Program-made: the position numbers and the translations under genes
Notes under the pieces: generated by a model
Database searches by the model: none
The model's input: the letters and a program-made list of their open reading frames with translations, nothing else
Told to the model about the DNA's origin: nothing
Source: Lachnospiraceae bacterium
Lineage (GTDB): Bacteria; Bacillota; Clostridia; Lachnospirales; Lachnospiraceae
Direction of reading: 5' to 3'
DNA length: 62,502 nucleotides
Assembly: GCA_017635395.1 (NCBI GenBank)
Contig: JAGBLN010000033.1
Location: 1-62,502 of the forward strand
In this document: one piece after another, positions 37,592 to 60,680 of the stretch
Layout: each line of letters opens with the position of its first letter
Position numbering within the stretch: position 1 is the stretch's first letter

Positions 37592-37635
37592 AAAAGGAAA
37601 GATGAATGGACGAAATCAACAGGGCGGAGGATAGA

Positions 37636-38776: not shown

Positions 38777-38902
38777 ATGATGACAAATACAATAGTTACT
38801 AAGTGGATGGCTTGTATGTGTTGTCGAATGTTTAACTCCCGGGTGGATGAGATGGCCCGGATGAGCGGTGGATCCGCATATCCGGAAAAGATACGATGTT
38901 GA
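38777..38902 (+). CDS. Cys/Met-rich leader peptide upstream of metY
   Basis: A 41-residue ORF with one of the best ribosome-binding sites in the window, AAGGAGG (38765-38771). It may start at ATG 38777 or 38780. It contains MACMCCRMF, with Cys codons at 38813, 38819, 38822 and 38897, seven Met codons, and ends RC-stop. The segment just after the Cys codons, CTCCCGGG (38836-38843), is perfectly complementary to the terminator's 5' arm. It has the same length, Cys position and final RC as the leader at 42271. Its likely role is a cysteine-sensing attenuator: stalling at Cys codons lets the antiterminator form, whereas free translation lets the terminator form. Confidence 0.7.
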   Translation: MMTNTIVTKWMACMCCRMFNSRVDEMARMSGGSAYPEKIRC

Positions 38903-38929
38903 AACAGGTATCATGAAGTGTGCCAGCTG

Positions 38930-38960
38930 CCCGGGAGCTAAATGAAGCCCCGGTTTTTTT
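38930..38960 (+). terminator. Attenuator terminator before metY
   Basis: CCGGG-a-GCT (38931-38939), loop AAATGA, and AGC-CCCGG (38946-38953, counting the extra C), followed by T7 (38954-38960). The 5' arm CCCGGGAG (38930-38937) can pair alternatively with CTCCCGGG (38836-38843) inside the leader peptide gene. A shorter competing stem pairs CCGGG (38839-38843) with CCCGG (38856-38860). Confidence 0.75.
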
Positions 38961-39003
38961 ATCGGAAGATTAAAAATTCAGAAGAGATAAGGAGAATAAA
39001 AAA

Positions 39004-40284
39004 ATGAGCGATTACAGATTTGAAACATTACAGTTACACGTTGGTCAGGAACAGGCAGATCCCACTACAGATTCAAGGGCAGTTCCCATTTATCAGACTA
39101 CATCATATGTATTCCACAACAGCAAGCATGCGGCAGACAGATTCGGTCTTGCAGATGCGGGAAACATATACGGAAGACTTACCAACAGCACACAGGATGT
39201 TCTTGAAAAGAGAGTTGCGGCTCTGGAAGGCGGAAGCGCAGCGCTTGCTGTAGCATCCGGAGCGGCTGCCATCTCATACACGATAGAAGCACTTGCGGCT
39301 AACGGCGGACATATCGTAGCACAGAAGACAATCTACGGTGGAAGCTACAATCTTCTTGAGCATACGCTTCCCCAGTACAATATAGAGACAACATTTGTAG
39401 ATGCACATAATCTTCAGGAGGTTGAAGGCGCAATTAAGGAAAATACAAGGGCGATCTACCTGGAGACACTTGGAAATCCCAACAGTGATATTCCTGATAT
39501 CGATGCAATAGCTGAGATAGCACACAAGCATGGACTTCCTCTTGTGGTAGACAACACCTTCGGAACACCTTACCTTATCAGGCCTATCGAGCATGGCGCT
39601 GATATCGTGGTTCATTCCGCAACAAAGTTCCTTGGCGGGCACGGAACCACACTGGGCGGTGTTATCGTAGAGGCAGGCAAGTTTAACTGGAAGGAAAGCG
39701 GAAAGTACAAGGGCATCGCAGATCCAAATCCCAGCTACCATGGAGTATCCTTCTATGATGTAGTCGGCCCGGCAGCATTTGTTACATATATAAGAGCTAT
39801 TCTTCTCAGAGACACAGGAGCAACTCTTTCACCCTTCAATGCATTCCTCCTTTTGCAGGGTATTGAGACTCTGTCTCTGAGACTGGAAAGGCATGCAGAA
39901 AATACCAAAAAAGTGGTAGAATATCTTTCAAAGAATCCTAAGGTTGCAAATGTAAACCATCCTTCGCTTGCTGACCACCCGGATCATGCACTGTATGAGA
40001 GATACTTCCCCAACGGCGGTGCATCGATATTCACTTTCGACATAAAGGGCGGACAGGAAGAAGCATGGAAGTTTATCGACAGCCTGGAGATCTTCTCATT
40101 GCTTGCAAATGTTGCTGATGTGAAGAGCCTTGTTATCCATCCTGCTACTACTACACACTCACAGCTTTCTGAGGAAGAACTGCTGGATCAGGGTATCAAA
40201 CAGAGCACCATTAGACTTTCGATAGGTACAGAACACATTGACGACATCATTGCCGACCTTGAGAAGGGATTTGCAGCAATCTGA
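39004..40284 (+). CDS. metY: O-acetylhomoserine sulfhydrylase / aminocarboxypropyltransferase
   Basis: 426 residues of the Cys/Met metabolism PLP family. The PLP lysine is K208 in HSATKFLGGHG. MetY features are the opening FETLQLHVGQEQADPTTDSRAVPIYQTTSYVF, the insertion around residues 226-262 (KESGKYKGIADPNPSYHGVSF), and a length of about 425 instead of the 380-400 of cystathionine enzymes. It makes homocysteine from O-acetylhomoserine and sulfide. AGGAG precedes the ATG. It is the first enzyme gene after a Cys-codon attenuator and forms an operon with cysK. Confidence 0.93.
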   Translation: MSDYRFETLQLHVGQEQADPTTDSRAVPIYQTTSYVFHNSKHAADRFGLADAGNIYGRLTNSTQDVLEKRVAALEGGSAALAVASGAAAISYTIEALAANGGHIVAQKTIYGGSYNLLEHTLPQYNIETTFVDAHNLQEVEGAIKENTRAIYLETLGNPNSDIPDIDAIAEIAHKHGLPLVVDNTFGTPYLIRPIEHGADIVVHSATKFLGGHGTTLGGVIVEAGKFNWKESGKYKGIADPNPSYHGVSFYDVVGPAAFVTYIRAILLRDTGATLSPFNAFLLLQGIETLSLRLERHAENTKKVVEYLSKNPKVANVNHPSLADHPDHALYERYFPNGGASIFTFDIKGGQEEAWKFIDSLEIFSLLANVADVKSLVIHPATTTHSQLSEEELLDQGIKQSTIRLSIGTEHIDDIIADLEKGFAAI

Positions 40285-40409
40285 TCCGGAAAGCCGGATA
40301 GAATAGCCTGAAAGGGCTGCATAACAGAATGAAGAATCAAAAGTATAACTGTCCGGGTGTCACAGACATCAGGACAGTTAGCTATGAAAAAAGGAGGAAG
40401 GTATCAACT

Positions 40410-41342
40410 ATGTCTAAGATTTACAAGGGAACATTAGGCCTGATAGGGAACACCCCGCTGGTTGAGGTGGTTAATATTGAGAAGGAGCTTGGGCTTGAAG
40501 CGACAATCTTAGTTAAGCTCGAATATTTCAATCCCGCAGGAAGTGTTAAGGATCGTATCGCAAAATCCATGATCGAAGATGCTGAGGAGAAGGGACTCTT
40601 AAAGGAAGGTTCAGTCATCATCGAACCCACATCCGGAAATACCGGTATAGGACTTGCGGCTATAGCTGCATCAAAGGGATACCGTATCATCCTTACCATG
40701 CCTGAAACCATGAGTGTTGAACGCCGTAATATCCTTAAAGCTTACGGTGCAGAGATTGTCCTCACAGAGGGCTCAAAGGGAATGAAGGGCGCTATTGCAA
40801 AGGCTGAGGAGCTTTCTAAGGAAATCCCGGACAGCTTCATACCCGGGCAGTTCGTAAATCCTGCAAATCCTGCGGTTCACAGAGCAACTACCGGACCGGA
40901 GATCTGGAACGATACAGACGGTAAGGTCGATATCTTCATTGCAGGCGTAGGTACAGGCGGAACAGTAACGGGAACCGGTGAATATCTTAAATCGCAGAAT
41001 CCTGGTATTAAAGTAGTTGCACTGGAGCCGGAGGATTCACCTGTGCTTTCTGAGGGAAGGGCAGGTGCTCATAAGATCCAGGGAATAGGCGCAGGCTTCG
41101 TGCCGGATGTGCTTAATACAAAAGTTTATGATGAAGTCTTCAAGGCTGCCAATCAGGATGCGTTTGATACTGCCAAGCTTCTTGCAAGGAGGGAAGGTAT
41201 TTCTGTGGGAATATCTTCAGGTGCTGCTCTTTTCGGAGCTATCCAGTTAGCTAAGAGGCCTGAAAACAAAGGAAAGACGATAGTTGCATTACTTCCTGAT
41301 AGTGGAGACAGATATTATTCAACACCGTTATTTACAGAATGA
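40410..41342 (+). CDS. cysK: Cysteine synthase A
   Basis: 310 residues, fold-type II PLP enzyme. PLP lysine K47 lies in NPAGSVKDR; TSGNTGIG and GTGGTVTGTG bind substrate and phosphate. It makes cysteine from O-acetylserine and sulfide. I place the start at 40410, where AAAGGAGG lies upstream and the protein begins like other CysK proteins. An in-frame ATG at 40329 would add 27 residues and is unlikely. The intergenic region contains an 8-bp inverted repeat AACTGTCC/GGACAGTT (about 40347-40381). Confidence 0.94.
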   Translation: MSKIYKGTLGLIGNTPLVEVVNIEKELGLEATILVKLEYFNPAGSVKDRIAKSMIEDAEEKGLLKEGSVIIEPTSGNTGIGLAAIAASKGYRIILTMPETMSVERRNILKAYGAEIVLTEGSKGMKGAIAKAEELSKEIPDSFIPGQFVNPANPAVHRATTGPEIWNDTDGKVDIFIAGVGTGGTVTGTGEYLKSQNPGIKVVALEPEDSPVLSEGRAGAHKIQGIGAGFVPDVLNTKVYDEVFKAANQDAFDTAKLLARREGISVGISSGAALFGAIQLAKRPENKGKTIVALLPDSGDRYYSTPLFTE

Positions 41343-41355
41343 TATGAACTATCAG

Positions 41356-41387
41356 AGCCCGGGGAAAGATTTCCCCGGGCTTTTTTT
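41356..41387 (+). terminator. Terminator of the metY-cysK operon
   Basis: AGCCCGGGGAA (41356-41366) pairs with TTCCCCGGGCT (41371-41381), followed by T7. Confidence 0.88.
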
Positions 41388-41421
41388 GGAATAAAATGAG
41401 TTAGAGGAATATCATCGGGGC

Positions 41422-41491
41422 GTGATAATCATAATTTATCACAGAAGATAAGATATAGAGAATATCCAACTTATATGTCGGGTGATATGCT
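41422..41491 (+). promoter_or_regulatory. LysR-type operator D and promoter of the SGNH gene
   Basis: GTGATAA (41422-41428), 7 nt, TTATCAC (41436-41442), 3 nt, AGATAA (41446-41451). An extended -10, TG-A-TATGCT (41483-41491), has its hexamer exactly 40 nt after the first base of AGATAA. The predicted transcription start falls at about 41498, which is the ATG itself. Confidence 0.55.
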
Positions 41492-41497
41492 TATAAC

Positions 41498-42127
41498 ATG
41501 AAAACAATAGTTGCATTTGGAGATTCGAATACATGGGGGCTTGTACCTAAGTCTGAGCCTCACGAGAGATATCCTGAAGATGTCAGATGGACAGGTGTGC
41601 TGCAGGGCTTATTAAAAGATGCCCGTGTGGTGGAAGAGGGACTCTGTGGAAGGACGACGGTTTTTGAGGATGAACTGAGACCGGGGAGAAAAGGTCTGTC
41701 AATGCTTCCGGTCATACTTGAAAGCCAGTATCCGGTAGATGCCGTGATCATAATGCTTGGAACCAATGACTGCAAAAGCGTTTACGGCGCATCCGCACAT
41801 ACCATAGGCAAGGGAATGGAACTTTGCATTGATGAATTAAAGAAATATGTTTCCGCAGAAAAGATTCTTCTGGTATCACCGATATTTTTGGGGAATGATG
41901 TGTGGTGGCCGGATAAGGATCCGGAATTCGGACCGAGATCGGTTGAGGTAAGCAAAGAGCTGAAGGCGATATATGTTCGTATAGCAGAAGCTAAAGGCAC
42001 TGCGTTTCTCGCTGCTTCGGATCATGCTTATGCAGATGATCTGGATAATGAGCATATGAATGAGAAAGGTCATGCAAGCTTTGCAAAGGCAGTCTATGAA
42101 AAGCTCGTAGAAATGAGAATAGCGTGA
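41498..42127 (+). CDS. SGNH/GDSL-family hydrolase
   Basis: 209 residues of the SGNH superfamily. Block I FGDSNTWG contains the nucleophile Ser10, block III is GTNDCK, and block V, with the Asp-x-x-His pair, is near DNEHMNEKGHA. Close relatives are small arylesterases or acyl-hydrolases. The gene has no good ribosome-binding site, and the predicted promoter places transcription start at the ATG, so the mRNA may be leaderless. The shared LysR-type operator places it in the sulfur regulon, which would suggest an acyl-ester substrate linked to O-acyl amino acids, but that is inference. Confidence 0.82.
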   Translation: MKTIVAFGDSNTWGLVPKSEPHERYPEDVRWTGVLQGLLKDARVVEEGLCGRTTVFEDELRPGRKGLSMLPVILESQYPVDAVIIMLGTNDCKSVYGASAHTIGKGMELCIDELKKYVSAEKILLVSPIFLGNDVWWPDKDPEFGPRSVEVSKELKAIYVRIAEAKGTAFLAASDHAYADDLDNEHMNEKGHASFAKAVYEKLVEMRIA

Positions 42128-42160
42128 CAGTCTCTTTCACGGTGTGGAAAGTTTTGATAG

Positions 42161-42230
42161 GTTATAAGTAAAAATTATCACAGGCGATAAGAAGTAATGA
42201 TTTTTCGAAGATGCCTGCGGATGGTAACAT
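42161..42230 (+). promoter_or_regulatory. LysR-type operator B and promoter of the mcc operon
   Basis: GTTATAA (42161-42167), 7 nt, TTATCAC (42175-42181), 3 nt, CGATAA (42185-42190). An extended -10, TG-G-TAACAT (42222-42230), has its hexamer exactly 40 nt after the first base of CGATAA, the same geometry as at the metY operon. Confidence 0.6.
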
Positions 42231-42270
42231 TACCAATGTCAGATAAATTTTATAAAAGCAGGAAAAGGAA

Positions 42271-42396
42271 ATGACTAAAGTATTGATGACAAAAATGAAT
42301 AACACACAGTGTTGTTGCAGTAACGTATTCCGGGCTGGATTGGCGGTCGGGATGTGGGAGGATATTTCCTTGATTCCTGATAGAGAGCGATGTTAA
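42271..42396 (+). CDS. Cys-rich leader peptide upstream of mccB
   Basis: A 41-residue ORF with three consecutive Cys codons (42310-42318; peptide NNTQCCCSNVF), a final RC-stop, and a purine-rich ribosome-binding site (GGAAAAGGAA). It is the same length as the leader upstream of metY, and in both there are 27 residues from the CC pair to the end. CCGGGCT (42330-42336), starting 11 nt after the last tandem Cys codon, is perfectly complementary to AGCCCGG (42424-42430) at the terminator's 5' arm. The role is as proposed for the metY leader. Confidence 0.7.
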   Translation: MTKVLMTKMNNTQCCCSNVFRAGLAVGMWEDISLIPDRERC

Positions 42397-42423
42397 TGCA
42401 AGAACATTGTAACTTATGCCAGA

Positions 42424-42453
42424 AGCCCGGGAGTATGTATCCCGGGTTTTTTT
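42424..42453 (+). terminator. Attenuator terminator before mccB
   Basis: CCCGGGA (42426-42432), loop GTATGTA, TCCCGGG (42440-42446), then T7. It is mutually exclusive with the 7-bp pairing between 42330-42336 and 42424-42430. Confidence 0.8.
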
Positions 42454-42487
42454 ATAGATTATCATTAATTAAACGGAGGAAAAGAAA

Positions 42488-43649
42488 ATGAGCTTAAAGA
42501 TTGATTCGGTACTGATACACGGAGGCAGGGACGGAGATGAAACCACAGGTGCGGTAAATGTTCCCATATACCAGACATCCACATATAAGCAGGATGGTCT
42601 GGGAGAAACAAGGGGCTGGGAGTATTCCAGGACAGGAAATCCTACACGGGATGCTCTGGAAAAACTGCTCGCAGACCTGGAACAGGGGGAGTACGGATTT
42701 GCATTTGCATCAGGACTGGCAGCCATCAACACGGTACTTTCATTATTTAAGTCAGGCGATAAGCTGATCGTTTCAGATAATATTTACGGCGGCACGTTCA
42801 GAATACTTGATAATGTGTTTAAGAATTTCGGCATCACATATGAGATAGTGAATACTTCGGATGTTTCGCTTATAGAGAAAGCGATCGATGACAGCGTAAA
42901 AGCTGTATATGTTGAAAGCCCGGCGAATCCTCTGCTTACTGTCACGGATATTGCTGCTGTTGCGGAGGTCGCTCATAAATACAATAAGCTCTTAATAGTA
43001 GACAATACATTTCTGACACCCTATCTGCAGAGACCTCTTACACTCGGTGCGGATATAGTTATACACAGCGGTACAAAATATCTTGGCGGACACAGTGATA
43101 CGGTATCAGGTCTCGCGGTTGTTAAGGATAAGGAACTTGCGGACAGGCTTTATTATCTTCAGAATGCCATAGGCGGAGTGCTTGCACCCTGGGACAGTTT
43201 CCTTGTGATACGTGGGATAAAGACTCTGGGCGTCAGGATGGACAGGCATGTTGCAAATGCAGGTAAGATCGCAGAGTGGCTTGAACAGAGCGGATATGTA
43301 AGTAAGGTATATTATCCGGGACTTAAGTCGGATCCCGGATATGAGGTTCAGAAAAAAACAGGCAGATGGAGCCGGTGCAATGATCTCGTTTGTACTGGAT
43401 GAAAAGTATGATTATCGTAAATTTTTCAAATCACTTAAGCTGATAACTCTTGCGGAAAGCCTTGGCGGTGTGGAGTCGCTTGTCTGCCACCCTGCAAGCA
43501 TGACACATGCTGCTATACCTGCGGATATCAGAAAGAAAGTCGGGATAGTTGATGAGCTTATACGTTTTTCTGTAGGAATAGAGGATGCTGACGATCTGAT
43601 AGAAGATCTTAAGCAGGCGATAGAAGCATCTGCAAAGGAGGTGAAATGA
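42488..43649 (+). pseudogene. mccB: Cystathionine gamma-lyase/synthase-like gene, frameshifted at a poly-A tract
   Basis: The first 289 or so codons encode a normal Cys/Met metabolism PLP enzyme: YSRTGNPTRDALE, and PLP lysine K197 in HSGTKYLGGHSD. At a run of seven A (43352-43358) the frame shifts and stops at 43402. The remaining C-terminal part continues in the +1 frame as QADGAGAMISFVLD... to 43649. Removing one A restores a full enzyme of about 386 residues. Its place before mccA suggests MccB, the lyase of the reverse transsulfuration pair. It could be a true mutation, a phase-variable tract, transcriptional slippage, or a sequencing error. AACGGAGGA precedes the ATG. Confidence 0.75.
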
Positions 43650-44563
43650 TCATGGATGTATATATGAGTGTTCATGAAATGATAGGTTCTACCCCGGTAC
43701 TTAAGCTGAATCACCTGGGGATAAAAAAGGAAGTGAATCTGTATGCAAAGCTTGAGCTTATGAATCCTGCAGGAAGTGTGAAGGATCGTGTGGGAATGTA
43801 TATGCTCGACGATGCTGAAGAAAGAGGACTGATAAAACCGGGTGGAACTATTGTGGAGGCCACTGCCGGCAATACCGGAATAGGCATAGCGATAGCTGCA
43901 TTAAACCGGGGATACAGGGTAATATTTACTGTTCCGGAAAAGTTTTCCATCGAGAAGCAGAAGATAATGAAAGCCCTTGGTGCGGAGATCATACATACCT
44001 CCAGAGAAGAGGGAATGCTTGGCGCAGAGAGAAAGGCTCAGGAGATACTTAAAGAAATCCCAGACTCGATATCACTGGGGCAGTTTCATAATCCGGCAAA
44101 TCCAAAGGCCCACTATGAGACTACGGGACCGGAGATATACAGGCAGCTTGACGGACAGATAGACTATCTCGTGGCAGGTGCAGGCAGCGGCGGAACATTT
44201 AGCGGAATAGTGAAGTATCTTAAGGAAAAGGATGAAAGTATAAAGGGTGTACTTGCGGATCCCTACGGTTCGATCATCGGTGGCGGCGAGCATGCAGACT
44301 ATGATATAGAAGGTATTGGAAATGATTTCATAGCGGATACGATGGATGTGACGCTTATTGACAAGGTGATAAAGGTAACGGACACAGAGGCCTTTGAAAC
44401 ATCAAGAATCCTTGCGGCAAAGGAAGGAATCCTTGCTGGATCATCATCAGGTGCTGCGCTCTCTGCAGCGATAAGGCTGGCAGACGAGATAGACCATGGA
44501 AACATAGTTGCGGTTCTTCCCGACAGAGGGGACAGATATCTGAGTAAGGGACTTTATGATTGA
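43646..44563 (+). CDS. mccA: Cystathionine beta-synthase-like enzyme (MccA-type)
   Basis: 305 residues, CysK-like fold without CBS or C-terminal regulatory domains. PLP lysine K46 lies in NPAGSVKDR. The loop reads TAGNTGIG, as in MccA and cystathionine beta-synthases, where CysK has TSGNTGIG. MccA makes cystathionine from homocysteine and an activated serine, and MccB cleaves it to cysteine. The ATG at 43646 overlaps the mccB stop (ATGA) and follows AAGGAGGTG; ATG 43652 is also possible. Cysteine synthase is the alternative function. Confidence 0.8.
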   Translation: MIMDVYMSVHEMIGSTPVLKLNHLGIKKEVNLYAKLELMNPAGSVKDRVGMYMLDDAEERGLIKPGGTIVEATAGNTGIGIAIAALNRGYRVIFTVPEKFSIEKQKIMKALGAEIIHTSREEGMLGAERKAQEILKEIPDSISLGQFHNPANPKAHYETTGPEIYRQLDGQIDYLVAGAGSGGTFSGIVKYLKEKDESIKGVLADPYGSIIGGGEHADYDIEGIGNDFIADTMDVTLIDKVIKVTDTEAFETSRILAAKEGILAGSSSGAALSAAIRLADEIDHGNIVAVLPDRGDRYLSKGLYD

Positions 44564-44655
44564 TATTGGTAATCACTGTGAGGGAATAAGCTGGTCGTTT
44601 AGGACAGAATTCATCGTAGCAAACATGAAAAGGATATATACCGAAAGGTAAAGAA

Positions 44656-45588
44656 ATGGTTGAAGAAAGAGAAAGCATAACCTCAAAACTGTGCTCTTTC
44701 GCAAGGGCGTGGCATACATATCATTCAAGAGACATTATCTTTGATGACTATCTTGCTTTTGACATGATGGGTAAAGAAGAATATGAAAATATGTATGAGC
44801 TGATAAAGGAAGGTCTGAACGGTGACGGGCGTTTAAGCCGTGAAGACACGGAGAAAGTGATCGATGAATATTTTGCACCGATTCCGCTTTCAAGGATCCA
44901 TTTCTGTGAAAGCAGACTGGCAGAATTTGCAGAAGGGAAGGATAAGATCCAGTATGTGATCTGCGGAGCTGGAGGAGATACTTTTGCATTCAGGAATGCG
45001 AATGACAATATAGAGATATTTGAGGTGGATCACCCGGATACGCAGAGATACAAGCTTGAGAGGATCAGGGAGCTGGGATGGCTGATGCGCCCTAATGTCC
45101 ATTTTGTATCAGTGGACTTTGAAAAGGAAAAAATGCGTGAAAGACTTATTGAGTCCGGCTTTGATCCCAAGGTTCCTGCTTTTTTCAGTATCCTTGGAGT
45201 GACATATTATCTTTCACTGGACAATCTTAAGGATGTCCTTGGACAGATAGCGAGTCTGTCCGGAGCATATAATGAAGTTGTATTTGATTATCCTTTTAAG
45301 AGCCATGGTTTTCCGGAAAGAGTTAAGAGACTGGAAATGATCACGGAATCATTGGGTGAGGTCATGTGCGGCGGTTTCCACTCAGATGAGATCAGGTGTG
45401 TGCTCTGCGGATTGGGATACCGGATCAATATTTTTCTTCCACCGGAAGAGATACAGTCTCTGTATTTTGAGGGAAGGGAGGATAACCTGAGGGCATTTGA
45501 AAATGTGAGTCTGGTTTCAGCATATTTTGCAGGATATGGCAGCATCAAAGAGATGGACGACATTAATACTATGACGCAGGCAGAATAA
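44656..45588 (+). CDS. SAM-dependent methyltransferase (LCM/PPM-like)
   Basis: 310 residues. The SAM-binding motif is VICGAGGDTFAFRN, followed by FEVDHPDTQRYKLERI. This pair of motifs is typical of the leucine carboxyl methyltransferase-like family (PF04072). The substrate is unknown. In Bacillus subtilis a methyltransferase (YrrT) accompanies mccA-mccB, so a link to SAM recycling is plausible, though I judge this one to be from a different methyltransferase family. Probably in the same operon as mccA (92-nt gap). Confidence 0.8.
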   Translation: MVEERESITSKLCSFARAWHTYHSRDIIFDDYLAFDMMGKEEYENMYELIKEGLNGDGRLSREDTEKVIDEYFAPIPLSRIHFCESRLAEFAEGKDKIQYVICGAGGDTFAFRNANDNIEIFEVDHPDTQRYKLERIRELGWLMRPNVHFVSVDFEKEKMRERLIESGFDPKVPAFFSILGVTYYLSLDNLKDVLGQIASLSGAYNEVVFDYPFKSHGFPERVKRLEMITESLGEVMCGGFHSDEIRCVLCGLGYRINIFLPPEEIQSLYFEGREDNLRAFENVSLVSAYFAGYGSIKEMDDINTMTQAE

Positions 45589-45617
45589 AGATAAGCGCTG
45601 CAGGAAGGTATGAGAAT

Positions 45618-46532
45618 ATGACAATACAGCAGTTGAATTACGTGATCAAAATTGCAGAAATGGGTTCGTTAAATAAGGCTTCTGAGATTCTCTATGTGGC
45701 GCAGCCGTCATTGACCACAGCAGTGCAGGAATTAGAGAAAGAGTTTGGGATATGTCTGTTTCACAGAAGCGGAAAGGGCGTGCGTCTTACGGCGGATGGA
45801 GAAGAGTTTATCCAGTATGCCAGAAGCATTGTGGAACAGTATGACGGGCTGATAGAGCTTTATGTGGGGGGATCCTATAAGAAAAAATTCGGAATCTCGA
45901 CGCAGCATTACTCTTTTGCGGTAAAGAGTTTTGTAGAGATGGTAAAAAAATACGATACCGGAGAATACGAGTTTGCCATCAGGGAAACCAGGACACTTGA
46001 AGTCATTGAAGACGTATATACGGGAAAAAGTGAGATAGGTGTTCTGTATAAAAGTGATTTTAACCGGGCTGCTATTGAAAAGGTATTAAAGAGCAACCAT
46101 CTGGAATTTACCGGACTGACGGAGTGTGACACATTTGTCTATCTGTGGAAGGGTCATCCCCTGGCAAAAAAGAAGAGCATCCGGTTTCCGGAATTATCAG
46201 AATATCCATGTCTTTCATTTGAGCAGGGGGGATCTGCATCGTTTTATTTTGCTGAAGAGATCCTGAGTACTGAAAAATATGCAAGGACGATAAAAGCAAA
46301 CGACCGTGCAACTATGTTAAACCTGATGGTCGGTCTTTTGGGATATACGCTATGCTCGGGGATCATTTGCGAAGAGCTGAACGGCAGCGATTATGTGGCG
46401 GTTCCTTTTGTTCCCGAGCATGAAAAGCAGAACAGCAAAATGGAGATCGGCTATATCACAAGAAAAAACGGGAGGCTTAGAAATCCGGCCACATTGTACA
46501 TTGAAGAGCTTAAAAATTACCTCGGGGTATAG
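45618..46532 (+). CDS. LysR-family regulator, paralogue of the 37636 gene
   Basis: 304 residues. The winged helix opens TIQQLNYVIKIAEMGSLNKASEILYVAQPSLTTAVQELE. The effector domain opens FGISTQHYSFAVKSF and aligns with the other LysR across its length. It is probably the last gene of the mcc operon, 29 nt after the methyltransferase. Both LysR proteins are candidates for the four tripartite operators in this region. A short Arg/Lys-rich C-terminal segment differs between them. Confidence 0.85.
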   Translation: MTIQQLNYVIKIAEMGSLNKASEILYVAQPSLTTAVQELEKEFGICLFHRSGKGVRLTADGEEFIQYARSIVEQYDGLIELYVGGSYKKKFGISTQHYSFAVKSFVEMVKKYDTGEYEFAIRETRTLEVIEDVYTGKSEIGVLYKSDFNRAAIEKVLKSNHLEFTGLTECDTFVYLWKGHPLAKKKSIRFPELSEYPCLSFEQGGSASFYFAEEILSTEKYARTIKANDRATMLNLMVGLLGYTLCSGIICEELNGSDYVAVPFVPEHEKQNSKMEIGYITRKNGRLRNPATLYIEELKNYLGV

Positions 46533-46565
46533 AACGAATCTATATGCTGATATACGCAAGTGTTA

Positions 46566-46595
46566 TTAGACGAATCAGGCCGGCTTAAATATACT
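46566..46595 (+). promoter_or_regulatory. Weak candidate promoter of the first metQ operon
   Basis: TTAGAC (46566-46571), 18 nt, TATACT (46590-46595). No LysR-type tripartite operator and no Cys leader peptide are seen here, in contrast to the second metNIQ operon. Confidence 0.35.
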
Positions 46596-46644
46596 TTAGA
46601 ATATCCTACAGAATAAAAAAGAGGAACAAAAGGAGGACAAAACT

Positions 46645-47592
46645 ATGAAGAAAAAAACAATTGCAGCACTTGGATTAGCACTTATTGCAACGCTTGGCCT
46701 GACAGCATGCGGAAATGCTGACGGACAGGGTTCGGCTGAAGTACAGGCAGCGGAGGATGCAGGAACGGCAACGGAACAGGTGGAAGCTCCTGCGGAAGAG
46801 ACAAAAGAAGAAGGGGCAGATGCAACGGAGTCATCATCGGAAGAAAAGACTTATGACAATGTAACTGTAAAGCTCGGAATCATGGGCGGAAGTGATGAAA
46901 CCGTCTGGGATCCCATAGTAGAGGAATTTGCGGCAAAGGGTGTGACTATCGAGTATGTATTCTTTACGGATTATACACAACCCAATGCGGCATTGGATGC
47001 GGGGGATATCGATCTTAATTCATTCCAGCATTACACATACCTCAATAAGGAAAAGGAAACTTTCGGATACCAGATAGATGCTATCGGAGACACACTGATC
47101 ACTGCGCTGAATGTATATTCTGATAAGCTTGAATCCATTGATGATCTTCCTGAGGGCGGCAAGATCGCAATCCCAAATGATGCAGTCAATGGCGGAAGAG
47201 CACTTAATGTACTTCAGGCAGCAGGCGTTATCAAGCTTGCAGAAGGCAAGGAACTCACACCGACCGTAGCAGACATTGAGGAAAATGCCAAGAATATCGA
47301 GATCATTGAAGTAGATGCTTCACAGACAGCAAGCCTTCTTCCTGATGTTGATGCGGCTGTTATCAATGGCGGATATGCACTTGATGCAGGACTTTCACCT
47401 ATTGATGATTCAATATTCTTTGATGATCCTTCATACTATACGACCAACGCATATGTGAATGTTATAGCGGCACGTACCGAAGATAAGGATAATGAGCTGT
47501 ATCAGGAAATCGTTAAGGCATATCAGACAGAGCGTACTAAGGAAATCTATGCAAACGATTTCCAGGGACTTTACATAGCAGCCTGGGAATGA
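46645..47592 (+). CDS. metQ: NlpA/MetQ-family substrate-binding lipoprotein
   Basis: 315 residues. Lipoprotein signal peptide with lipobox LTAC (Cys22), then an acidic linker (about 23-70), then the MetQ domain (VKLGIMGGSDETVWDPIVEEF...DLNSFQHYTYL). It binds methionine or a related sulfur compound outside the membrane and delivers it to the permease encoded downstream. AAAGGAGG precedes the ATG. It heads a six-gene run with an ATPase, permease, M20 hydrolase, PLP lyase and Fe-S protein. Confidence 0.9.
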   Translation: MKKKTIAALGLALIATLGLTACGNADGQGSAEVQAAEDAGTATEQVEAPAEETKEEGADATESSSEEKTYDNVTVKLGIMGGSDETVWDPIVEEFAAKGVTIEYVFFTDYTQPNAALDAGDIDLNSFQHYTYLNKEKETFGYQIDAIGDTLITALNVYSDKLESIDDLPEGGKIAIPNDAVNGGRALNVLQAAGVIKLAEGKELTPTVADIEENAKNIEIIEVDASQTASLLPDVDAAVINGGYALDAGLSPIDDSIFFDDPSYYTTNAYVNVIAARTEDKDNELYQEIVKAYQTERTKEIYANDFQGLYIAAWE

Positions 47593-48662
47593 TCATGGAA
47601 ACTATTATTGAATTTCAAAATCTGAAAAAAAAATTTGAGACAAAAGATCATGTTGTGGAGGCTGTCAGAGATGTCAGCCTCCGCATTCAGCGTGGTGAGA
47701 TATACGGGATAATCGGGTTTTCCGGAGCCGGCAAATCTACACTGGTCAGATGCATTAACATGCTGGAAAAACCTTCATCCGGCAAAGTGATAGTGGATGG
47801 TGTGGAATTAAGTGCACTGGGAGAAAAGGCACTTCGGCATGAACGGAAAAAGATCGGCATGATCTTTCAGCAGTTTAACCTGATGCCTTCTCGGACAGTA
47901 TTTGACAATGTAGCTCTTGCTCTTCACGGTTCGGGCTTATCAAAGGAAAAGACCGAAAAAAAAGTTGAGCAGCTTCTGGAGTATGTAGGCTTAAGTGAAC
48001 GGGCAAATTCATACCCGTCACAGCTTTCCGGAGGACAGAAGCAGAGAGTGGCAATTGCAAGGGCATTAGCCAATGATCCCAAGGTGCTTTTATGTGACGA
48101 GGCAACAAGCGCACTGGATCCGCAGACTACAAGGGCGATTCTGGAGCTTCTTCGCAGACTGAATAAGGAACTGGGCATTACTGTTGTGGTGATCACTCAT
48201 GAGATGAATGTGATAAAGAGGATCTGCGACCATGTTGCTGTCATGGAAAACGGCGAAGTAGTTGAGGAGGGAGATGTTTTTTCAGTATTTGCTTCGCCAC
48301 AGAAACAGATCACAAAGGATTTTATAAATATCACATCCAACCTGACAGAGATATATGATCTGGTGGAAAGGAAAGATCCGATAGTGGATCTGCAGTCCGG
48401 AGAAGTGCTTGCAATGCTTAAGTTCAGGAACGCAACAGTTTCCGAACCGTTAATATCTTCAGTATCAAAAGAGTTTGATGTTGTTTGCAATATACTCTTT
48501 GGTGATCTGGATATTATTTCCGGCGCTCCCATTGGAGGAACAGTGGTTATATTCGGCGGCGAGGAAGAAAAGGTCACATCGGCTCTTAACCATCTGACCG
48601 ATAAAGGAATTTCAGTGGAGGTGATAAGGGATGCAAGATCTGCTTCTAAAATTATTGCCTAA
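47589..48662 (+). CDS. metN: Methionine-type ABC transporter ATPase
   Basis: 357 residues. Walker A GFSGAGKST, signature LSGGQKQRVAIARA, Walker B VLLCDEATSALD and an H-loop in VITHEM are followed by a C-terminal NIL domain (about 270-355), the ligand-sensing domain of MetN proteins. Its ATG overlaps the metQ stop; ATG 47595 is a possible alternative. It drives import with the permease whose gene overlaps its end. Confidence 0.92.
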   Translation: MIMETIIEFQNLKKKFETKDHVVEAVRDVSLRIQRGEIYGIIGFSGAGKSTLVRCINMLEKPSSGKVIVDGVELSALGEKALRHERKKIGMIFQQFNLMPSRTVFDNVALALHGSGLSKEKTEKKVEQLLEYVGLSERANSYPSQLSGGQKQRVAIARALANDPKVLLCDEATSALDPQTTRAILELLRRLNKELGITVVVITHEMNVIKRICDHVAVMENGEVVEEGDVFSVFASPQKQITKDFINITSNLTEIYDLVERKDPIVDLQSGEVLAMLKFRNATVSEPLISSVSKEFDVVCNILFGDLDIISGAPIGGTVVIFGGEEEKVTSALNHLTDKGISVEVIRDARSASKIIA

Positions 48663-49311
48663 CCTAATGGTAAGGATACCGGAGTTTATAGATTCCATAA
48701 TCGATACCTTAAAGATGGTTGCCATTTCCGGAGGTTTTGTATTTTTATTTGGAATACTGATCGGAGTTACGCTTATCGTGACGAGAGACGGAGGCATTCT
48801 GGAACAGCGTGCTGTATTCCAGGCTTTTGATAAGCTGATCAACATATTCAGGTCCGTTCCTTTTGTGATCCTTATATCTCTGCTTCTGCCACTGACCAGG
48901 CTGATCGTACATACCAGCATTGGTGTTAAGGGGGCGATAGTTCCGCTGGTGATCGGAACGGTTCCTTTTTTTGCCAGACAGGTGGAGGCAGCATTGTCCG
49001 AAATAGACAAGGGTGTGATAGAGGCAGCCAAGGCTATGGGCATGGGACCGGTTACCATCATATTCAAAATCTATCTGCGGGAAGGGATACCTGCCCTTGC
49101 AAGAGCAACGACCATTACAGCGATAAATCTTCTTGGGCTAACAGCTATGGCCGGGGCTGTGGGTGCCGGAGGACTTGGCGATTTTGCCATAAGGTACGGA
49201 CATAACAGATATATGACGGATATCACATGGGTAACGACTATCGTACTTATACTGTTTGTCTGTGTGATCCAGGTAGCCGGTAATTTCATTGCAAAGAGGA
49301 GTACGCATTAA
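48631..49311 (+). CDS. metI: Methionine-type ABC transporter permease
   Basis: 226 residues, five or so membrane helices. The coupling motif EAAKAMGMGPVTIIFKIYLREGIPAL matches MetI. The start overlaps metN by 32 nt and GGAGGTG lies upstream, so translation is probably coupled. The stop overlaps the next start (TAATG). Confidence 0.92.
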   Translation: MQDLLLKLLPNLMVRIPEFIDSIIDTLKMVAISGGFVFLFGILIGVTLIVTRDGGILEQRAVFQAFDKLINIFRSVPFVILISLLLPLTRLIVHTSIGVKGAIVPLVIGTVPFFARQVEAALSEIDKGVIEAAKAMGMGPVTIIFKIYLREGIPALARATTITAINLLGLTAMAGAVGAGGLGDFAIRYGHNRYMTDITWVTTIVLILFVCVIQVAGNFIAKRSTH

Positions 49312-50504
49312 TGGGTAATGGTATTCTTTCGGAAATGGTCCGGCAGGAGCTGGAGACTTATACTGAGGAGCTGTACGGGTTTCGAAGAGACCTTCACAGA
49401 TATCCCGAGCCCAGTGGAAAAGAAGAGATCACTTCCGCAAAGATAAAAGAGAAGCTTGAGTCATACGGATATGATGTCAGGATCATCGGCGGGACCGGTC
49501 TGTATACGGAATTAAAAGGAATAAAAGAAGGACCGGTGATAATACTGCGGGCAGATATTGATGCACTGCCCATAGAAGAGAAAAGCAGTTATCCGTATCC
49601 GTCGGAGCACAAAGGATTTATGCACGCCTGCGGACATGATGTGCATACGACTGCACTGCTTGGTGCTGCAAGATTTCTTTCCGCACACAGAGATAGCTTA
49701 GCCGGAACAGTACGGTTTGTATTTCAGAATGCTGAAGAGCAGGGACATGGCTCAAAGTATTTCCTGGCAGAACGTGTTACCGATGGAGCTGAAAGGGTAT
49801 ACGGCTTTCATGTATCGCCGCATGTCAGGCTGGGAAACATACTGATAACTGAGGGCGCCGATCTTGCTTCCTGTGATTCTATGAAGATACGTTTATATGG
49901 GAAGAGCTCCCATATCGCCAGGCCCCACCTTGGGAATGATGTATCTGTATGTGCTGCGGACATTGTGATTCATCTGCGGGCACTGGCAGGCGGACTCGAT
50001 CCCCTTACACCGGCACTTATCGGTATAGGAAGGATCAGCTCCGGTACCGGATGGAATATCATTTCCGATTATGGTGAGATAGAGGGAACAGTACGTACCT
50101 TTTCCGTGGAGCAGCGTGAAATGCTTATACGCTCCGTGGAGGAAGTGATAAACAGGGTGAGTACGCTGTACGGCGTAAGAGCGGAAACTGAATTTGAGCT
50201 TAATGCCGGATGCCTTATCAATGATGCAGGAGCATATGCAACTGCGTATCAGGCATCAGCTGATACTGTTGGAGAAGCTGGTGTTACCGTAAAGCATACA
50301 CCCTTCGGATTCACTGCAGATGATTTTTCGGAATTCTCAAAAGAGGTTCCCGGCTGTTTCATACATGTGGGGACTGCTATTGATGACAGGGAAGATACAA
50401 AGGTTTCCCTGCACAGTCCGGATCTGTATATTACGGATGAGGCCGTAACTATAGGATCCGAATTACTGATCAGATGTGCTTTGGAGCATCTGGAAACAAA
50501 ATGA
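49311..50504 (+). CDS. M20-family amidohydrolase
   Basis: 397 residues of the M20D peptidase/amidohydrolase family. Metal motifs HACGHDVH and QNAEEQGHG, substrate loop RADIDALPIEEKS, and a dimerisation domain (about 190-300) are visible. Such enzymes remove N-acyl groups from amino acids. Its place between a methionine-type importer and a PLP C-S lyase suggests that it deacylates imported N-acyl sulfur amino acids, by analogy with YtnL/YxeP-type enzymes in Bacillus. That substrate is inference. Confidence 0.85.
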   Translation: MGNGILSEMVRQELETYTEELYGFRRDLHRYPEPSGKEEITSAKIKEKLESYGYDVRIIGGTGLYTELKGIKEGPVIILRADIDALPIEEKSSYPYPSEHKGFMHACGHDVHTTALLGAARFLSAHRDSLAGTVRFVFQNAEEQGHGSKYFLAERVTDGAERVYGFHVSPHVRLGNILITEGADLASCDSMKIRLYGKSSHIARPHLGNDVSVCAADIVIHLRALAGGLDPLTPALIGIGRISSGTGWNIISDYGEIEGTVRTFSVEQREMLIRSVEEVINRVSTLYGVRAETEFELNAGCLINDAGAYATAYQASADTVGEAGVTVKHTPFGFTADDFSEFSKEVPGCFIHVGTAIDDREDTKVSLHSPDLYITDEAVTIGSELLIRCALEHLETK

Positions 50505-50532
50505 AAATTTATTTTGAAAAGAGGATAAAAAA

Positions 50533-51729
50533 ATGAGCGAGAGTTTAACAACAGTATTGGCACATGCAGGAGACGGTCAGGCAGAAAAGAAATACCGGAC
50601 ATATACATCGATTCCGGAAGTGCTGCCTGTTTACATGACCAGCGTATTCGCTTTTGATGATGTGAAGAGTGTGGATGATATTTATGAAGGCGAATCCGAA
50701 GGTTATGTATATGCAAGGATGCAGCACCCGAATAATGAAGCTGCAGCGGATGCATTGGCATTTGCTGACAAGGCGGAAGCTGGACTGGTATTCTCTTCGG
50801 GAATGGCAGCGATAATCTTAAGTATACTGAGCGTTGTAAAAACCGGAGACCATATAGTATCTTCACCTGTACTCTACGGCGGTGTACGTGATTATCTTGA
50901 GAATGAGTTAAAGCGCTTTGGTGTAGAGGTGACATTTACTGATTTTGGTGATCCGGAAAATGTAAGGGCTGTAATAAGACCTAATACAAGAATCGTTTAC
51001 ACGGAAACCATCAGCAATCCGCTGATGCAGGTGGCGGATTATCCTGTTATAGCTGATATAGCACACGAAAACGGGGCATTGTTTTTCATAGATAATACAT
51101 TTGCATCACCTATAGTGGCAAATCCCGTAAAGTATGGCGCCGATCTTGTTTTATACAGTGCGACCAAATATCTGGGAGGGCACAGCGATCTGGTAGGCGG
51201 CGCTGCTACCGGCTCAGCTGAAGTTATAAGCGGCATAAAAAAGAAGCTGACATTATACGGAGCTACTCTTGGTGCGGCAGAAAGCTGGCTCCTTGCAAGG
51301 AGCCTCAGGACACTTGATCTCAGAGTGACAAAGCAGTCTCAAAATGCACTTAAGATCGCACAGTTCCTGGAGCAGCATGATGCTGTGGAAAAAGTATATT
51401 ATCCGGGACTTGAATCGGCACCGGAGCATGCGCTTGCTGAAAAACTGTTTAACAATGGCTTATATGGCGGTATGCTGAGTGCAGATATAAAGGGTGGTGA
51501 GGAAGCTGCAGTAAAGGTAGTCAATAATCTCGGCTTTATAAAATATGTACCCAGTCTTGCAGGTACTGCCACATCAGTGTCATATCCTGCGAAAACATCG
51601 CACAGGGCATACAGCAAAGAAGAGCTGGATAAGGCAGGAATATCTTTGGGACAGCTTCGTTTCTCAGCAGGAATCGAAGATGCCGATGATATCATAAATC
51701 AGCTTGAAAGTGCATTGGGGAGTCTGTAA
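50533..51729 (+). CDS. PLP-dependent sulfur amino-acid lyase/synthase
   Basis: 398 residues, Cys/Met metabolism PLP family. PLP lysine K212 lies in YSATKYLGGHSD; YARMQHPNNEAAADALA and SSGMAAI match the family. The subgroup (methionine gamma-lyase, cystathionine gamma-synthase or lyase) cannot be fixed by eye. Its context, after an M20 deacylase, favours a catabolic lyase. It is intact, so it might compensate for the frameshifted mccB. Confidence 0.85.
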   Translation: MSESLTTVLAHAGDGQAEKKYRTYTSIPEVLPVYMTSVFAFDDVKSVDDIYEGESEGYVYARMQHPNNEAAADALAFADKAEAGLVFSSGMAAIILSILSVVKTGDHIVSSPVLYGGVRDYLENELKRFGVEVTFTDFGDPENVRAVIRPNTRIVYTETISNPLMQVADYPVIADIAHENGALFFIDNTFASPIVANPVKYGADLVLYSATKYLGGHSDLVGGAATGSAEVISGIKKKLTLYGATLGAAESWLLARSLRTLDLRVTKQSQNALKIAQFLEQHDAVEKVYYPGLESAPEHALAEKLFNNGLYGGMLSADIKGGEEAAVKVVNNLGFIKYVPSLAGTATSVSYPAKTSHRAYSKEELDKAGISLGQLRFSAGIEDADDIINQLESALGSL

Positions 51730-52515
51730 ATGAAAGAACTGACATCTACTGAAAGAGCAGCATTAAAAAGGAAACTTAAAAGAGAAGCCGTGAGTCTTGG
51801 CGTCATTATGGTAGGCTTTGCCAATGTGGAACGCTGGGAGAAATACGACCTCACAACGGAAGAATTCTATCCGCATACCATATGGCCCTGGGCAAAGACT
51901 GTGATGGTAATGGGCGTGCAGATCTATCCGTCCATGCTGGAGACGACGCCGTCGGTTGTTTATTCAGAACTGTACAATACCACAAACCGCATGCTTGATG
52001 AGATCGCATACAGGATAGCCAATAAGCTTAATACCTACGGTTATCGGGCACATTTCTTCCCCAGGGACTGCTATGGTGATATTTCCGTGCTGGTAAAAAA
52101 GCCCGAGGTGGCATTTTCCCATGTAATAGCAGGTTATTATGCAGGACTCGGTACAATAGGAATGAACCATACCCTTTTAACCGAGGAATACGGTCCGAGA
52201 GTACGACTGGTAAGTGTGATAACCGATGCGGAGATAACACCTGACAGGATGCTCAAAAAAGATATCTGCGTCGGATGCAAGCAGTGTGTGAAGAACTGTC
52301 CTGTCAAAGCCTTTTCGGTAAAAGACGGTCAGAAGGTTGCAACTATGGACAAACATAAGTGTGCCAAGTACCACAGTGAACTGAAAGGAAAATTCAAGTA
52401 TCCCTGCGGAAGATGCACGGCTGTCTGTCCCATCGGAGCTGATAAGAAAAAATATGGAAGGAACAGCGTAAGTCCGGAGGGAATAGAGCATATAAGGTCA
52501 TTCGGATCAAATTAG
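51730..52515 (+). CDS. Epoxyqueuosine-reductase-like 4Fe-4S protein
   Basis: 261 residues. A C-terminal double 4Fe-4S ferredoxin segment is visible: C180-VGCKQCVKNCP and C226-GRCTAVCP. The N-terminal region (GVIMVGFANVERW...IWPWAKTVMVMGVQIYP) and AGLGTIGMNHTLLTEEYGPRVRLVSVIT resemble QueG and related reductases. It lacks the C-terminal HEAT repeats of full QueG. It starts directly after the PLP lyase stop. Similar short proteins occur in various operons as reductases of unknown substrate; a sulfoxide or other sulfur compound would fit here, but is not shown. Confidence 0.75.
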   Translation: MKELTSTERAALKRKLKREAVSLGVIMVGFANVERWEKYDLTTEEFYPHTIWPWAKTVMVMGVQIYPSMLETTPSVVYSELYNTTNRMLDEIAYRIANKLNTYGYRAHFFPRDCYGDISVLVKKPEVAFSHVIAGYYAGLGTIGMNHTLLTEEYGPRVRLVSVITDAEITPDRMLKKDICVGCKQCVKNCPVKAFSVKDGQKVATMDKHKCAKYHSELKGKFKYPCGRCTAVCPIGADKKKYGRNSVSPEGIEHIRSFGSN

Positions 52516-52537
52516 AGCTTCCAGGATGGTTTTATGT

Positions 52538-52607
52538 GCTATAAGCAAAAGTTATCACCGATAATAAAATGTATTGAATTTACTAATGACTGTTTTGCAT
52601 TTAAGAT
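52538..52607 (+). promoter_or_regulatory. LysR-type operator C and promoter of the second metNIQ operon
   Basis: GCTATAA (52538-52544), 7 nt, TTATCAC (52552-52558), 3 nt, TAATAA (52562-52567). The -10 candidate TAAGAT (52602-52607) is again exactly 40 nt from the third element. The extended TG is absent here. Confidence 0.5.
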
Positions 52608-52668
52608 AAAGTCATCCTGATAAGAGAGTTACAGGAAATACATTAAATAAATTGGAAAGGAAAAGCAG

Positions 52669-52758
52669 ATGATGAATTATATGTACACACGATTGTTTAT
52701 GTGCTGTGACTGTATGAATACCGGATCGTGTTATCGTCGTCTGTCTGTTCCTGAATGA
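52669..52758 (+). CDS. Cys/Met-rich leader peptide upstream of metN2
   Basis: A 29-residue ORF whose middle reads FMCCDCMNTGSC, with Cys codons at 52702, 52705, 52711 and 52729 and five Met codons. A GGAAAGGA-type ribosome-binding site lies upstream. It is shorter than the other two leaders and lacks the final RC, but occupies the same place between operator and terminator. ACCGG (52720-52724) can pair with CCGGT (52788-52792) in the terminator. TTATCGTC (52731-52738) pairs perfectly with GACGATAA (52766-52773), enclosing the stop codon. Confidence 0.6.
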   Translation: MMNYMYTRLFMCCDCMNTGSCYRRLSVPE

Positions 52759-52783
52759 CATAAGAGACGATAATGATTTAAAT

Positions 52784-52827
52784 CGGCCCGGTTTTCAGAA
52801 ATGGATGCCGGGCTGTTTATTTTTATA
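52784..52827 (+). terminator. Attenuator terminator before metN2
   Basis: CGGCCCGG (52784-52791) pairs with CCGGGCTG (52808-52815), 8 bp with one G-U, followed by a T-rich tract (52816-52827). Confidence 0.7.
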
Positions 52828-59004: not shown

Positions 59005-59029
59005 TCAAAACAACTGAATAAAACAAACC

Positions 59030-60465: not shown

Positions 60466-60680
60466 CTGCCGATGGCTCCCCCGGCGGTGGTGCCGTTCGC
60501 TAAGCGGTTCTATCGGAAATGGTAAAGTGAGTTCATGTCGTCCGGGACCGTTCACACGCTACATCCGTGTAGCGTTGTTCACTCGGCCCGTCATCCTTGA
60601 CGGTCCGTCCCTGCGATGCTTGATCATTTCCGAGACCCGCTAAGCTCACTTAAACACCGCCGGGTGAGACCATACGGCAG
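60466..60680 (+). repeat. Foldback element between trpD and trpC
   Basis: About 215 nt of noncoding sequence. CTGCCG-ATGG (60466-60475) pairs with CCAT-a-CGGCAG (60670-60680). CCCGGCGGTG (60480-60489) pairs with CACCGCCGGG (60655-60664). Apical hairpins are ACGCTACA/TGTAGCGT (60556-60575) and CCGTCA/TGACGG (60588-60603). AAGTGAG (60525-60531) with CTCACTT (60645-60651), and CGGAAATG (60514-60521) with CATTTCCG (60625-60632), cross each other, so they form a pseudoknot or two alternative folds. No coding region. It is not similar in sequence to the foldback at 11962. Confidence 0.55.

Follow-up and report, generated by a model that had tools for sequence, protein, structure and literature searches.

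Cysteine-codon leaders with alternative antiterminator and terminator folds precede sulfur-amino-acid operons in Lachnospiraceae and other Clostridia

In a 62,502-nucleotide (nt) stretch of a Lachnospiraceae bacterium genome (GenBank assembly GCA_017635395.1, contig JAGBLN010000033.1, positions 1 to 62,502; 'the window'), the metY–cysK and mccB–cysK2 operons each follow a short upstream open reading frame (uORF) with tandem Cys codons. Sequence comparison indicates that these two leaders are very probably ribosome-mediated transcription attenuators, which sense the supply of cysteinyl-tRNA through the tandem Cys codons. Many gut and rumen Clostridia appear, from their sequences, to switch on sulfur-amino-acid genes through ribosome stalling on Cys (perhaps Met) codons of a short uORF, a mechanism distinct from clostridial T-boxes and riboswitches. 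Attenuation by stalling at Cys codons had been proposed from the window sequence for these leaders and for a third, before a second metNIQ operon (the original prediction); conserved codons, matched base changes and the class of downstream gene support it for the metY and mccB leaders.

Translation confirmed the Cys- and Met-rich leader ORFs before metY and mccB (Table 1). Complementarity had been noted between 38836–38843 and 38930–38937, and between 42330–42336 and 42424–42430; both pairings are present, and each extends to nine positions, including one G–T pair. Here we call the upstream strand segment 2 and the downstream strand, which is also the 5′ arm of the terminator, segment 3. The duplex energy was matched by 1 in 1,000 dinucleotide shuffles of the spacer for each of the two leaders. 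The expected terminators fold behind both leaders as hairpins with T-runs; a mechanical promoter and terminator scan of the window listed none of the three leader terminators. Among short frames (15–60 amino acids) with a Shine–Dalgarno (SD) match of at least 5/6, the window holds 24 ATG starts on both strands, and CC occurs in four of these, representing three frames: the metY leader, the mccB leader and one inside metY.

Related loci carry similar leaders. Among 80 metY loci, the best of 554 relatives found, 26 had a leader ORF of the type ...MCC-RM-xx-SRA.... In these and the window leader the Arg-Met codons were CGA ATG in 27 of 27 cases, a count independent of the CGAATG pattern and of covariance model R1 (both below), with the Arg codon left free in the script for 25. 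The pattern CGAATG-N5-CTCCCGG occurred in 50 of 397 family genomes, at 54 places in all, compared with 4 genomes for a reversed control. It gives chance matches: judged on uORF and segment 3, 33 of the 54 places were accepted as leaders, and the other 21 were dropped before later counts. Our set of 56 leaders includes 30 found through a pattern containing CGAATG and excludes L081, where no segment 3 was found (L numbers denote loci). A larger set of 91 comprises the 56, the window mccB leader and 34 of 35 new leaders found with R1; L266, which repeats L030, was excluded, and L033, found later by R1 with MMCM before CGAATG, is in no count.

Cys codons keep a fixed place in these leaders. Within the set of 56, Cys stood no more than four codons before the near-invariant CGAATG in 55. 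Counting from the Arg position next to the control codons, Cys was present at codon −1 in 74 and at −2 in 75 of the 91 leaders, compared with at most two at any of codons −7 to −16; 90 of the 91 had Cys within codons −4 to −1, the exception being L086. Arg itself was found in 86 leaders, with the codon CGA in 85 of these 86 against 247 of 6,057 in background frames, and Met followed at +1 in 90. The control Cys codons were 167 TGT and 22 TGC, against 511 TGT and 831 TGC in the background, a rough one drawn from open frames ≥250 codons long in the loci numbered L086 and above. An SD match of at least 5/6 was found in 52 of the 56 leaders when the best in-frame start was chosen. The stop codon lay 15–37 nt 5′ of segment 3 in 45 of 56, and the final control Cys lay 19–29 codons before the stop in 48 of 55; 13 of the 56 leader peptides end Arg-Cys-stop. 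For mccB, 8 of 22 related loci (own excluded) were judged to have Cys-rich leaders (L141, L142, L147–L150, L152 and L153), with Cys runs including CCCS, TCCRM, MCCQ and CCCCRM, and in larger stretches of mccB relatives four mccB-side leaders matched R1 (L170, L171, L176 and, weakly, L177).

The alternative pairing is conserved together with the codons. Segments 2 and 3 paired at 9/9 positions in 53 of the 56 leaders and at 8/9 in the other three, segment 3 being taken as the best match within the next 220 nt, a choice biased towards good pairing. In 50 of the 56 leaders a T-run could be identified no more than 51 nt after segment 3. Matched changes in the two strands were seen in SRT leaders such as L087 (CTCCCGGAC with GTCCGGGAG), in L071 (CTCCCGAGC with GTTCGGGAG) and in L030 (CTCTCAGAC with GTCTGGGAG). 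In alignment A2, made from 44 of the 56 leaders, the long antiterminator consists of the 2:3 helix (CTCCCGGGC:GCCCGGGAG, 99.5% of cells paired), ATGGC:GCCAT (81.8%) and an inner hairpin, GGGGCG:CGCCTC (81.8%). Overall, 89.9% of antiterminator cells pair, compared with 29–50% when slid. Changes on both sides affected 12 antiterminator pairs, a number reached by 3 of 500 shuffles, and 40 cells, compared with 13.0 in shuffles and reached by none of 500. For the terminator, 92.0% of cells pair (20–69% slid) and three pairs showed changes on both sides (reached by 15 of 500 shuffles), while the number of pair types was not above that of shuffles (239 of 500 reach it). The leader anatomy is a uORF with an SD sequence, Cys codons at a fixed place, the antiterminator, and a terminator (3:4) that the antiterminator excludes, both folds using segment 3. 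No classical 1:2 hairpin (anti-antiterminator) was seen in the leaders.

Covariance model R1 starts at CGAATG and hence contains no Cys codon. It nevertheless found 35 new leaders outside its training set, and in all 35 an in-frame ORF carried Cys within codons −4 to −1; four further matches outside training (L093, L100, L134 and L138), likewise with Cys, were known from the set of 56, and the window mccB leader is counted apart. That leader, which lacks CGAATG, scored 36.4 bits (expectation value (E) 5.3e-7 in 20 kb) and is outside training; the metY leader scored 94.5 bits, but is a training member. Searched up to E of 1, the source genome itself gave only these two matches. R1 matched 26 of the same 80 metY loci at E < 0.01, 25 in common with the ORF-based set and many of them training sequences. 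At E up to 1e-4, matches were found in 37 of 299 family genomes including the source (36 of 298 others), 12 of 341 class genomes (11 of 340 others) and 2 of 299 phylum genomes including the source, all lower bounds because stricter filters were used. Many carriers are rumen or gut records by title, from Lachnospiraceae and other Clostridia. A covariance-model search of relatives had been suggested with the original prediction, which was to fall if relatives lacked conserved Cys codons or alternative pairing: for the metY and mccB leaders the search revealed conserved Cys codons, matched changes in antiterminator and terminator and the same class of downstream gene, whereas the metN leader gained no such support.

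Known RNA families do not account for the leaders. No Rfam family matched any of the three at gathering scores, nor the metY leader at E up to 1. The T-box model RF00230 matched none of them at its gathering score or, in a genome search, at E up to 0.001, nor the metY leader even at E up to 1. Six related metY loci gave no Rfam match at E up to 0.05, and six further loci gave one sub-threshold Clostridiales-1 fragment, outside the leader. Identity as an Rfam riboswitch (S-box and others) or as a T-box was therefore dropped, there being no match in the loci searched; a T-box binds uncharged tRNA directly, and translation is not needed. We also considered a metabolite-binding riboswitch that happens to contain an ORF, which would suit the dominance of a long branched antiterminator in the naked RNA of 34 of 50 leaders. 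This is very unlikely, as, CGAATG apart, the strongly conserved bases sit in the partner-switching helices, the inner region is constant in neither length nor sequence, no Rfam family was matched at the leaders searched, and Cys codons are present in all 35 leaders found by the codon-blind model.

Alternatively, the conserved CCRM peptide might itself arrest the ribosome in response to a metabolite rather than to empty Cys-tRNA. The near-invariant Arg-Met behind Cys invites this explanation, as does the NFRNG.M common to a second leader type. We think it improbable: residues −14 to −5, which known arrest peptides need, are unconserved here (commonest residue at most 27%), the bias to CGA among Arg codons points to the RNA or to decoding rather than to the side chain, and Arg is replaced by Cys in L262, L263 and L265 and by Trp in L261.

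The second leader type, (YFEKLVRE)NFRNG.M, in most cases followed by CC, lies within ~230 nt before metY in L010, L034, L041, L046, L053, L056, L060, L063, L064 and L077, which are labelled Treponema, Ruminococcus or Clostridiales. Profile A3 matched all ten of these genomes (eight of them in the profile), one of them twice, with the second copy also before metY; in that genome the frame ends before any Cys. L258 (NFRCG-RM) and L086 (NYRFG-RM) appear intermediate between this type and the main family.

Several Met codons stand among the Cys codons, and the original prediction had allowed that both amino acids are sensed. Met was found at −3 in 55 and at −4 in 40 of the 91 leaders, besides its near-constant presence at +1, and Met-Cys alternation such as MCMCMC occurs in L249, L252 and L123. 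Within codons −6 to −1, leaders before metQNI had 2.0 Met each (n = 16) compared with 1.23 before metY, mccB or cysK (n = 64; one-sided Mann–Whitney p = 6e-5), and the mean remained 2.0 (n = 10, p = 8e-4) when the six metQNI leaders from a single genus were removed. The enrichment thus lends dual sensing statistical support, but, as ATG is the only Met codon, is not separable from RNA-level reasons for ATG; at least one Cys is also retained within four codons in 90 of the 91 leaders, although the samples are related. A joint sensor in which Met counts as much as Cys, with the MCM, MMC and MCMCMC leaders mainly Met sensors, is a serious possibility, if short of probable. From the sequences, the Met enrichment plausibly favours a joint Cys/Met sensor without proving one, and Met codons among the Cys codons may report methionine supply too, chiefly before metQNI.

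We propose that attenuation at Cys codons would work as follows. When Cys-tRNA is short, the ribosome would stall at the Cys codons with the second Cys codon in its A site, and its leading edge, which reaches ~16 nt past the start of the P-site codon, would come to rest just 5′ of segment 2. As segment 3 emerges from RNA polymerase, the long antiterminator would then fold, allowing transcription of the operon. When Cys-tRNA is ample, the ribosome would pass segment 2 and the inner hairpin to reach the stop codon, the 2:3 helix would form too late, and the terminator would stop transcription; the position of the stop codon would hold the finishing ribosome between segments 2 and 3 during terminator synthesis. 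In partition functions, placing the ribosome at Cys favoured the antiterminator (probability >0.5) in 46 of 50 leaders, and placing it at the stop codon favoured the terminator in 44 of 50; naked RNA favoured the antiterminator in 34 and the terminator in 14 of the 50. Because the naked RNA of most leaders favours the antiterminator, we predict that the operon is ON by default and would be turned OFF once the uORF has been fully translated.

Several observations weigh against this scheme. Equilibrium folding prefers the terminator in the window mccB and metN leaders, including when the ribosome sits at the Cys codons, so that antitermination there would have to be kinetic. The uORF continues for ~20 codons beyond segment 2, so that segment 2 is left uncovered by a ribosome at the stop codon, unlike in the Escherichia coli trp leader. 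Six of the 56 leaders (L030, L057, L062, L076, L093 and L138) lack a recognisable T-run in the 51 nt after segment 3, and the window metN leader scored 6.3 bits (E 2.3) with R1. The counts overstate independence, through related sequences, pattern-found members and the preference of R1 for CGAATG. Finally, the near-invariant CGAATG is unexplained by the attenuation model. It can pair with CATTTG beside segment 3, fully in 19 of 44 leaders and in 80.7% of cells (18–48% slid), but without covariation, as its own side never varies. A broader proposal, which we hold only tentatively, is a joint Cys/Met attenuator regulon of Clostridia in which each operon has its own tuned mix of Met and Cys codons, the uncommon codons TGT and CGA, together with CGAATG, are part of the sensor, and the default without translation is ON; with the same reserve, CGAATG might then be an RNA-polymerase pause site that aligns the ribosome, or might act as segment 1 by pairing with CATTTG near the terminator.

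For the leader of the second metNIQ operon, the ORF and hairpin that had been described are present, but the T-tract is weak and R1 gives no support. Its SD match is 4/6. Positions 52716–52724 pair at 8/9 with 52788–52796, an antiterminator that had not been given before; its duplex was matched by 52 or by 1 of 1,000 shuffles, depending on where the test stretch starts. No comparable leader was found in 24 related metN loci: L187 and L198 have Cys-bearing short frames judged to be non-leaders, and in six loci examined by eye the upstream stretch resembles the end of another gene. These features, with the low R1 score, speak for a chance Cys-rich ORF preceding an unrelated terminator, an explanation that we regard as possible, though doubtful, for this leader alone. 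Against chance stand the four Cys among 29 codons, in the order Met-Cys-Cys, the complementarity at the right place, and the presence of family leaders before metN or metQ elsewhere (L092, L123 and L216). This leader may be a plausible single case of the same mechanism, resting on one sequence.

Comparison of the first two downstream ORFs with window proteins classed the genes behind the 91 leaders as metY in 52 cases, metQNI in 16, mccB in 9, cysK in 3, lysR in 1 and others in 10. ATP-binding cassette (ABC) substrate-binding proteins or a permease follow the leaders L102, L251, L260 and L206, and in L126 a substrate-binding or permease-type ABC gene is second, after a gene without family match. 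The closest named match of the L260 transporter is a cystine-binding protein, well below that family's cut-off. Behind L247 (1500–3134) lies a gene resembling (2S)-3-sulfopropanediol dehydratase (NF048011, 777 bits over partial sequence, cut-off 1000), which would fit sulfonate as a sulfur source under cysteine control. A putative cyclase is downstream in L255, and a GST-domain protein is the second gene in L087; the family search gave no family for the downstream genes of L117 and L261. The first gene is a PepT-like peptidase in L262 (counted as mccB) and a short-chain dehydrogenase in L134 (counted as cysK).

The assembly, in which the window is contig 24, spans 2.1 Mb and is 72.6% complete; its source is close to Lachnospiraceae bacterium AB2028 (MetY 96% identical). 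The sulfur gene cluster of the window, at 38.5–55.5 kb, holds metY–cysK, mccB–cysK2, two metNIQ sets and a methionine-gamma-lyase-like gene. mccB is present as two overlapping frames (42488–43402 and 43341–43649), where the closest relatives have a single open frame of ~391–414 amino acids; the split is either an assembly error or a real break. An operator-like box, TTATC-N2..6-GATAA (part of ATAAG-N5-CTTAT-like repeats), occurs at 38650, 41436, 42175 and 52552, 5′ of the three leaders and of a GDSL-lipase gene (four found, 0.35 expected from mononucleotide shuffles). As two LysR-type regulator genes lie nearby (37606–38541 and 45618–46532), promoter control may act on top of attenuation at these sulfur genes. 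Elsewhere in the window, a T-box match at 59022–59309 (+), of 51 bits and under the gathering score of 93, precedes a trpD-like gene, and a TwoAYGGAY RNA at 60496–60653 (−) lies between the trpD-like and a trpC-like gene.

Table 1. Positions in the window of the leaders, their elements and the genes behind them.
Feature	Position	Strand	Basis
metY–cysK leader ORF, 41 amino acids, Met/Cys control codons and terminal Cys, MMTNTIVTKWMACMCCRMFNSRVDEMARMSGGSAYPEKIRC	38777..38902	+	Translation, homologous leaders
metY leader control codons Cys-Met-Cys-Cys (TGT ATG TGT TGT)	38813..38824	+	Sequence, position-specific enrichment
Near-invariant CGAATG (Arg-Met) right behind metY control codons	38825..38830	+	27/27 metY-type leaders
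metY segment 2, antiterminator 5′ strand, CTCCCGGGT	38836..38844	+	Pairing comparison
metY segment 3, antiterminator 3′ strand and terminator 5′ arm, GCCCGGGAG	38929..38937	+	Pairing comparison
metY intrinsic terminator hairpin and T-run	38931..38960	+	Folding; unlisted by terminator scan
metY, O-acetylhomoserine/O-acetylserine sulfhydrylase family	39004..40284	+	TIGR01326
cysK, cysteine synthase	40329..41342	+	TIGR01139
mccB–cysK2 leader ORF, 41 amino acids, MTKVLMTKMNNTQCCCSNVFRAGLAVGMWEDISLIPDRERC	42271..42396	+	Translation, R1 match 42324-42451, 36.4 bits
mccB leader control codons Cys-Cys-Cys (TGT TGT TGC)	42310..42318	+	Sequence
mccB segment 2, TTCCGGGCT	42328..42336	+	Duplex shuffle test
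mccB segment 3, AGCCCGGGA	42424..42432	+	Duplex shuffle test
mccB intrinsic terminator and T-run	42425..42453	+	Folding; unlisted by terminator scan
mccB N-terminal part, cystathionine gamma-lyase/gamma-synthase family, frame broken in assembly	42488..43402	+	Family match
cysK2 (mccA in the original prediction), cysteine-synthase family	43646..44563	+	Family match
Cys/Met-rich leader ORF of second metNIQ operon, weakly supported, MMNYMYTRLFMCCDCMNTGSCYRRLSVPE	52669..52758	+	Translation
metN leader possible segment 2, GAATACCGG	52716..52724	+	Folding, duplex shuffle test
Hairpin with weak T-tract before metN; 5′ arm holds possible segment 3 (52788-52796)	52784..52815	+	Folding
metN, methionine ABC transporter ATPase, followed by metI and metQ	52880..53881	+	Best NCBIfam TIGR02314, below cut-off

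Cysteine-codon attenuation is known or predicted in other bacteria. By the title of Canestrari et al. 2020 (as cited in PMC13236596), polycysteine leaderless short ORFs of mycobacteria are a cysteine-responsive attenuator of operonic genes, and on that title the likeness is that Cys codons in a short ORF attenuate operonic genes. As far as that title and the relevant part of PMC1262725 define them, the mycobacterial ORFs are leaderless with the Cys run near the stop, whereas the clostridial leaders have SD-led starts and Cys well upstream of the stop. An earlier prediction, in the same part of PMC1262725, described mycobacterial cys leaders without conserved terminator hairpins, in contrast to the intrinsic terminators and antiterminator with matched changes found here. 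It also places Cys leader peptides of Actinobacteria before cys and cbs genes; these share the Cys-codon leader with the clostridial family but differ, so far as that text goes, in Cys runs near the stop and the lack of conserved terminators. The uORFC-8-2 motif of Rhodobacterales cysS, as outlined in PMC8632094, has a conserved AUG, tandem Cys codons and an intrinsic terminator, with ribosome-mediated attenuation proposed. By the same outline its Cys codons, predominantly UGC, lie inside the first stem, and it is limited to cysS and to Rhodobacterales, whereas in the clostridial leaders UGU dominates (167 versus 22), the Cys codons come before the antiterminator and several kinds of operon follow. 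Membership of that motif was accordingly rejected for our leaders, whose Cys codons precede the conserved structure and whose genes are metY, mccB, metQNI, cysK and others.

Among Firmicutes, hisS and hisZ leader peptides have been predicted in bacilli, as regular leader-peptide attenuation replacing T-boxes (PMC2965389); these concern histidine and Bacilli, and no cysteine system is named in the excerpted text of that paper. Clostridial cysteine control has been described, in the portion of PMC2940859 on this subject, through T-boxes and S-boxes, with a Cys-specific T-box in Clostridium perfringens at cysK–cysE, cysP1, cysP2 and the ubiG operon, which includes mccB. Those T-boxes resemble the present leaders in gene kinds (cysK, mccB), in premature termination as the output and in response to cysteine supply. 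They differ in that the present leaders, as searched, give no T-box match. Word matching in open-licence PubMed Central found no description of such leaders in Clostridia, and within these searches the suggestion of an undescribed Firmicute cysteine-attenuation system stands, with neither an Rfam match nor a paper found.

The principle of Cys-codon attenuation is already known; new here are the lineage, the anatomy, the several kinds of operon and the unexplained near-invariant hexamer. The source genome has five T-box matches, two above cut-off and none at the three leaders, and the presence of leader attenuators in the same genome suggests that both systems exist side by side, and that Firmicutes with T-boxes use leader-peptide attenuation alongside them. 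In many Lachnospiraceae and other Clostridia, the leaders would add a sensor that depends on translation, at gene kinds also described under clostridial T-boxes. The family is a ready marker for sulfur-responsive operons, including those for ABC transporters of uncertain substrate and the sulfopropanediol-dehydratase-like gene, and it raises the question of whether a single leader, with its Met and Cys codons interleaved, can respond to two amino acids.

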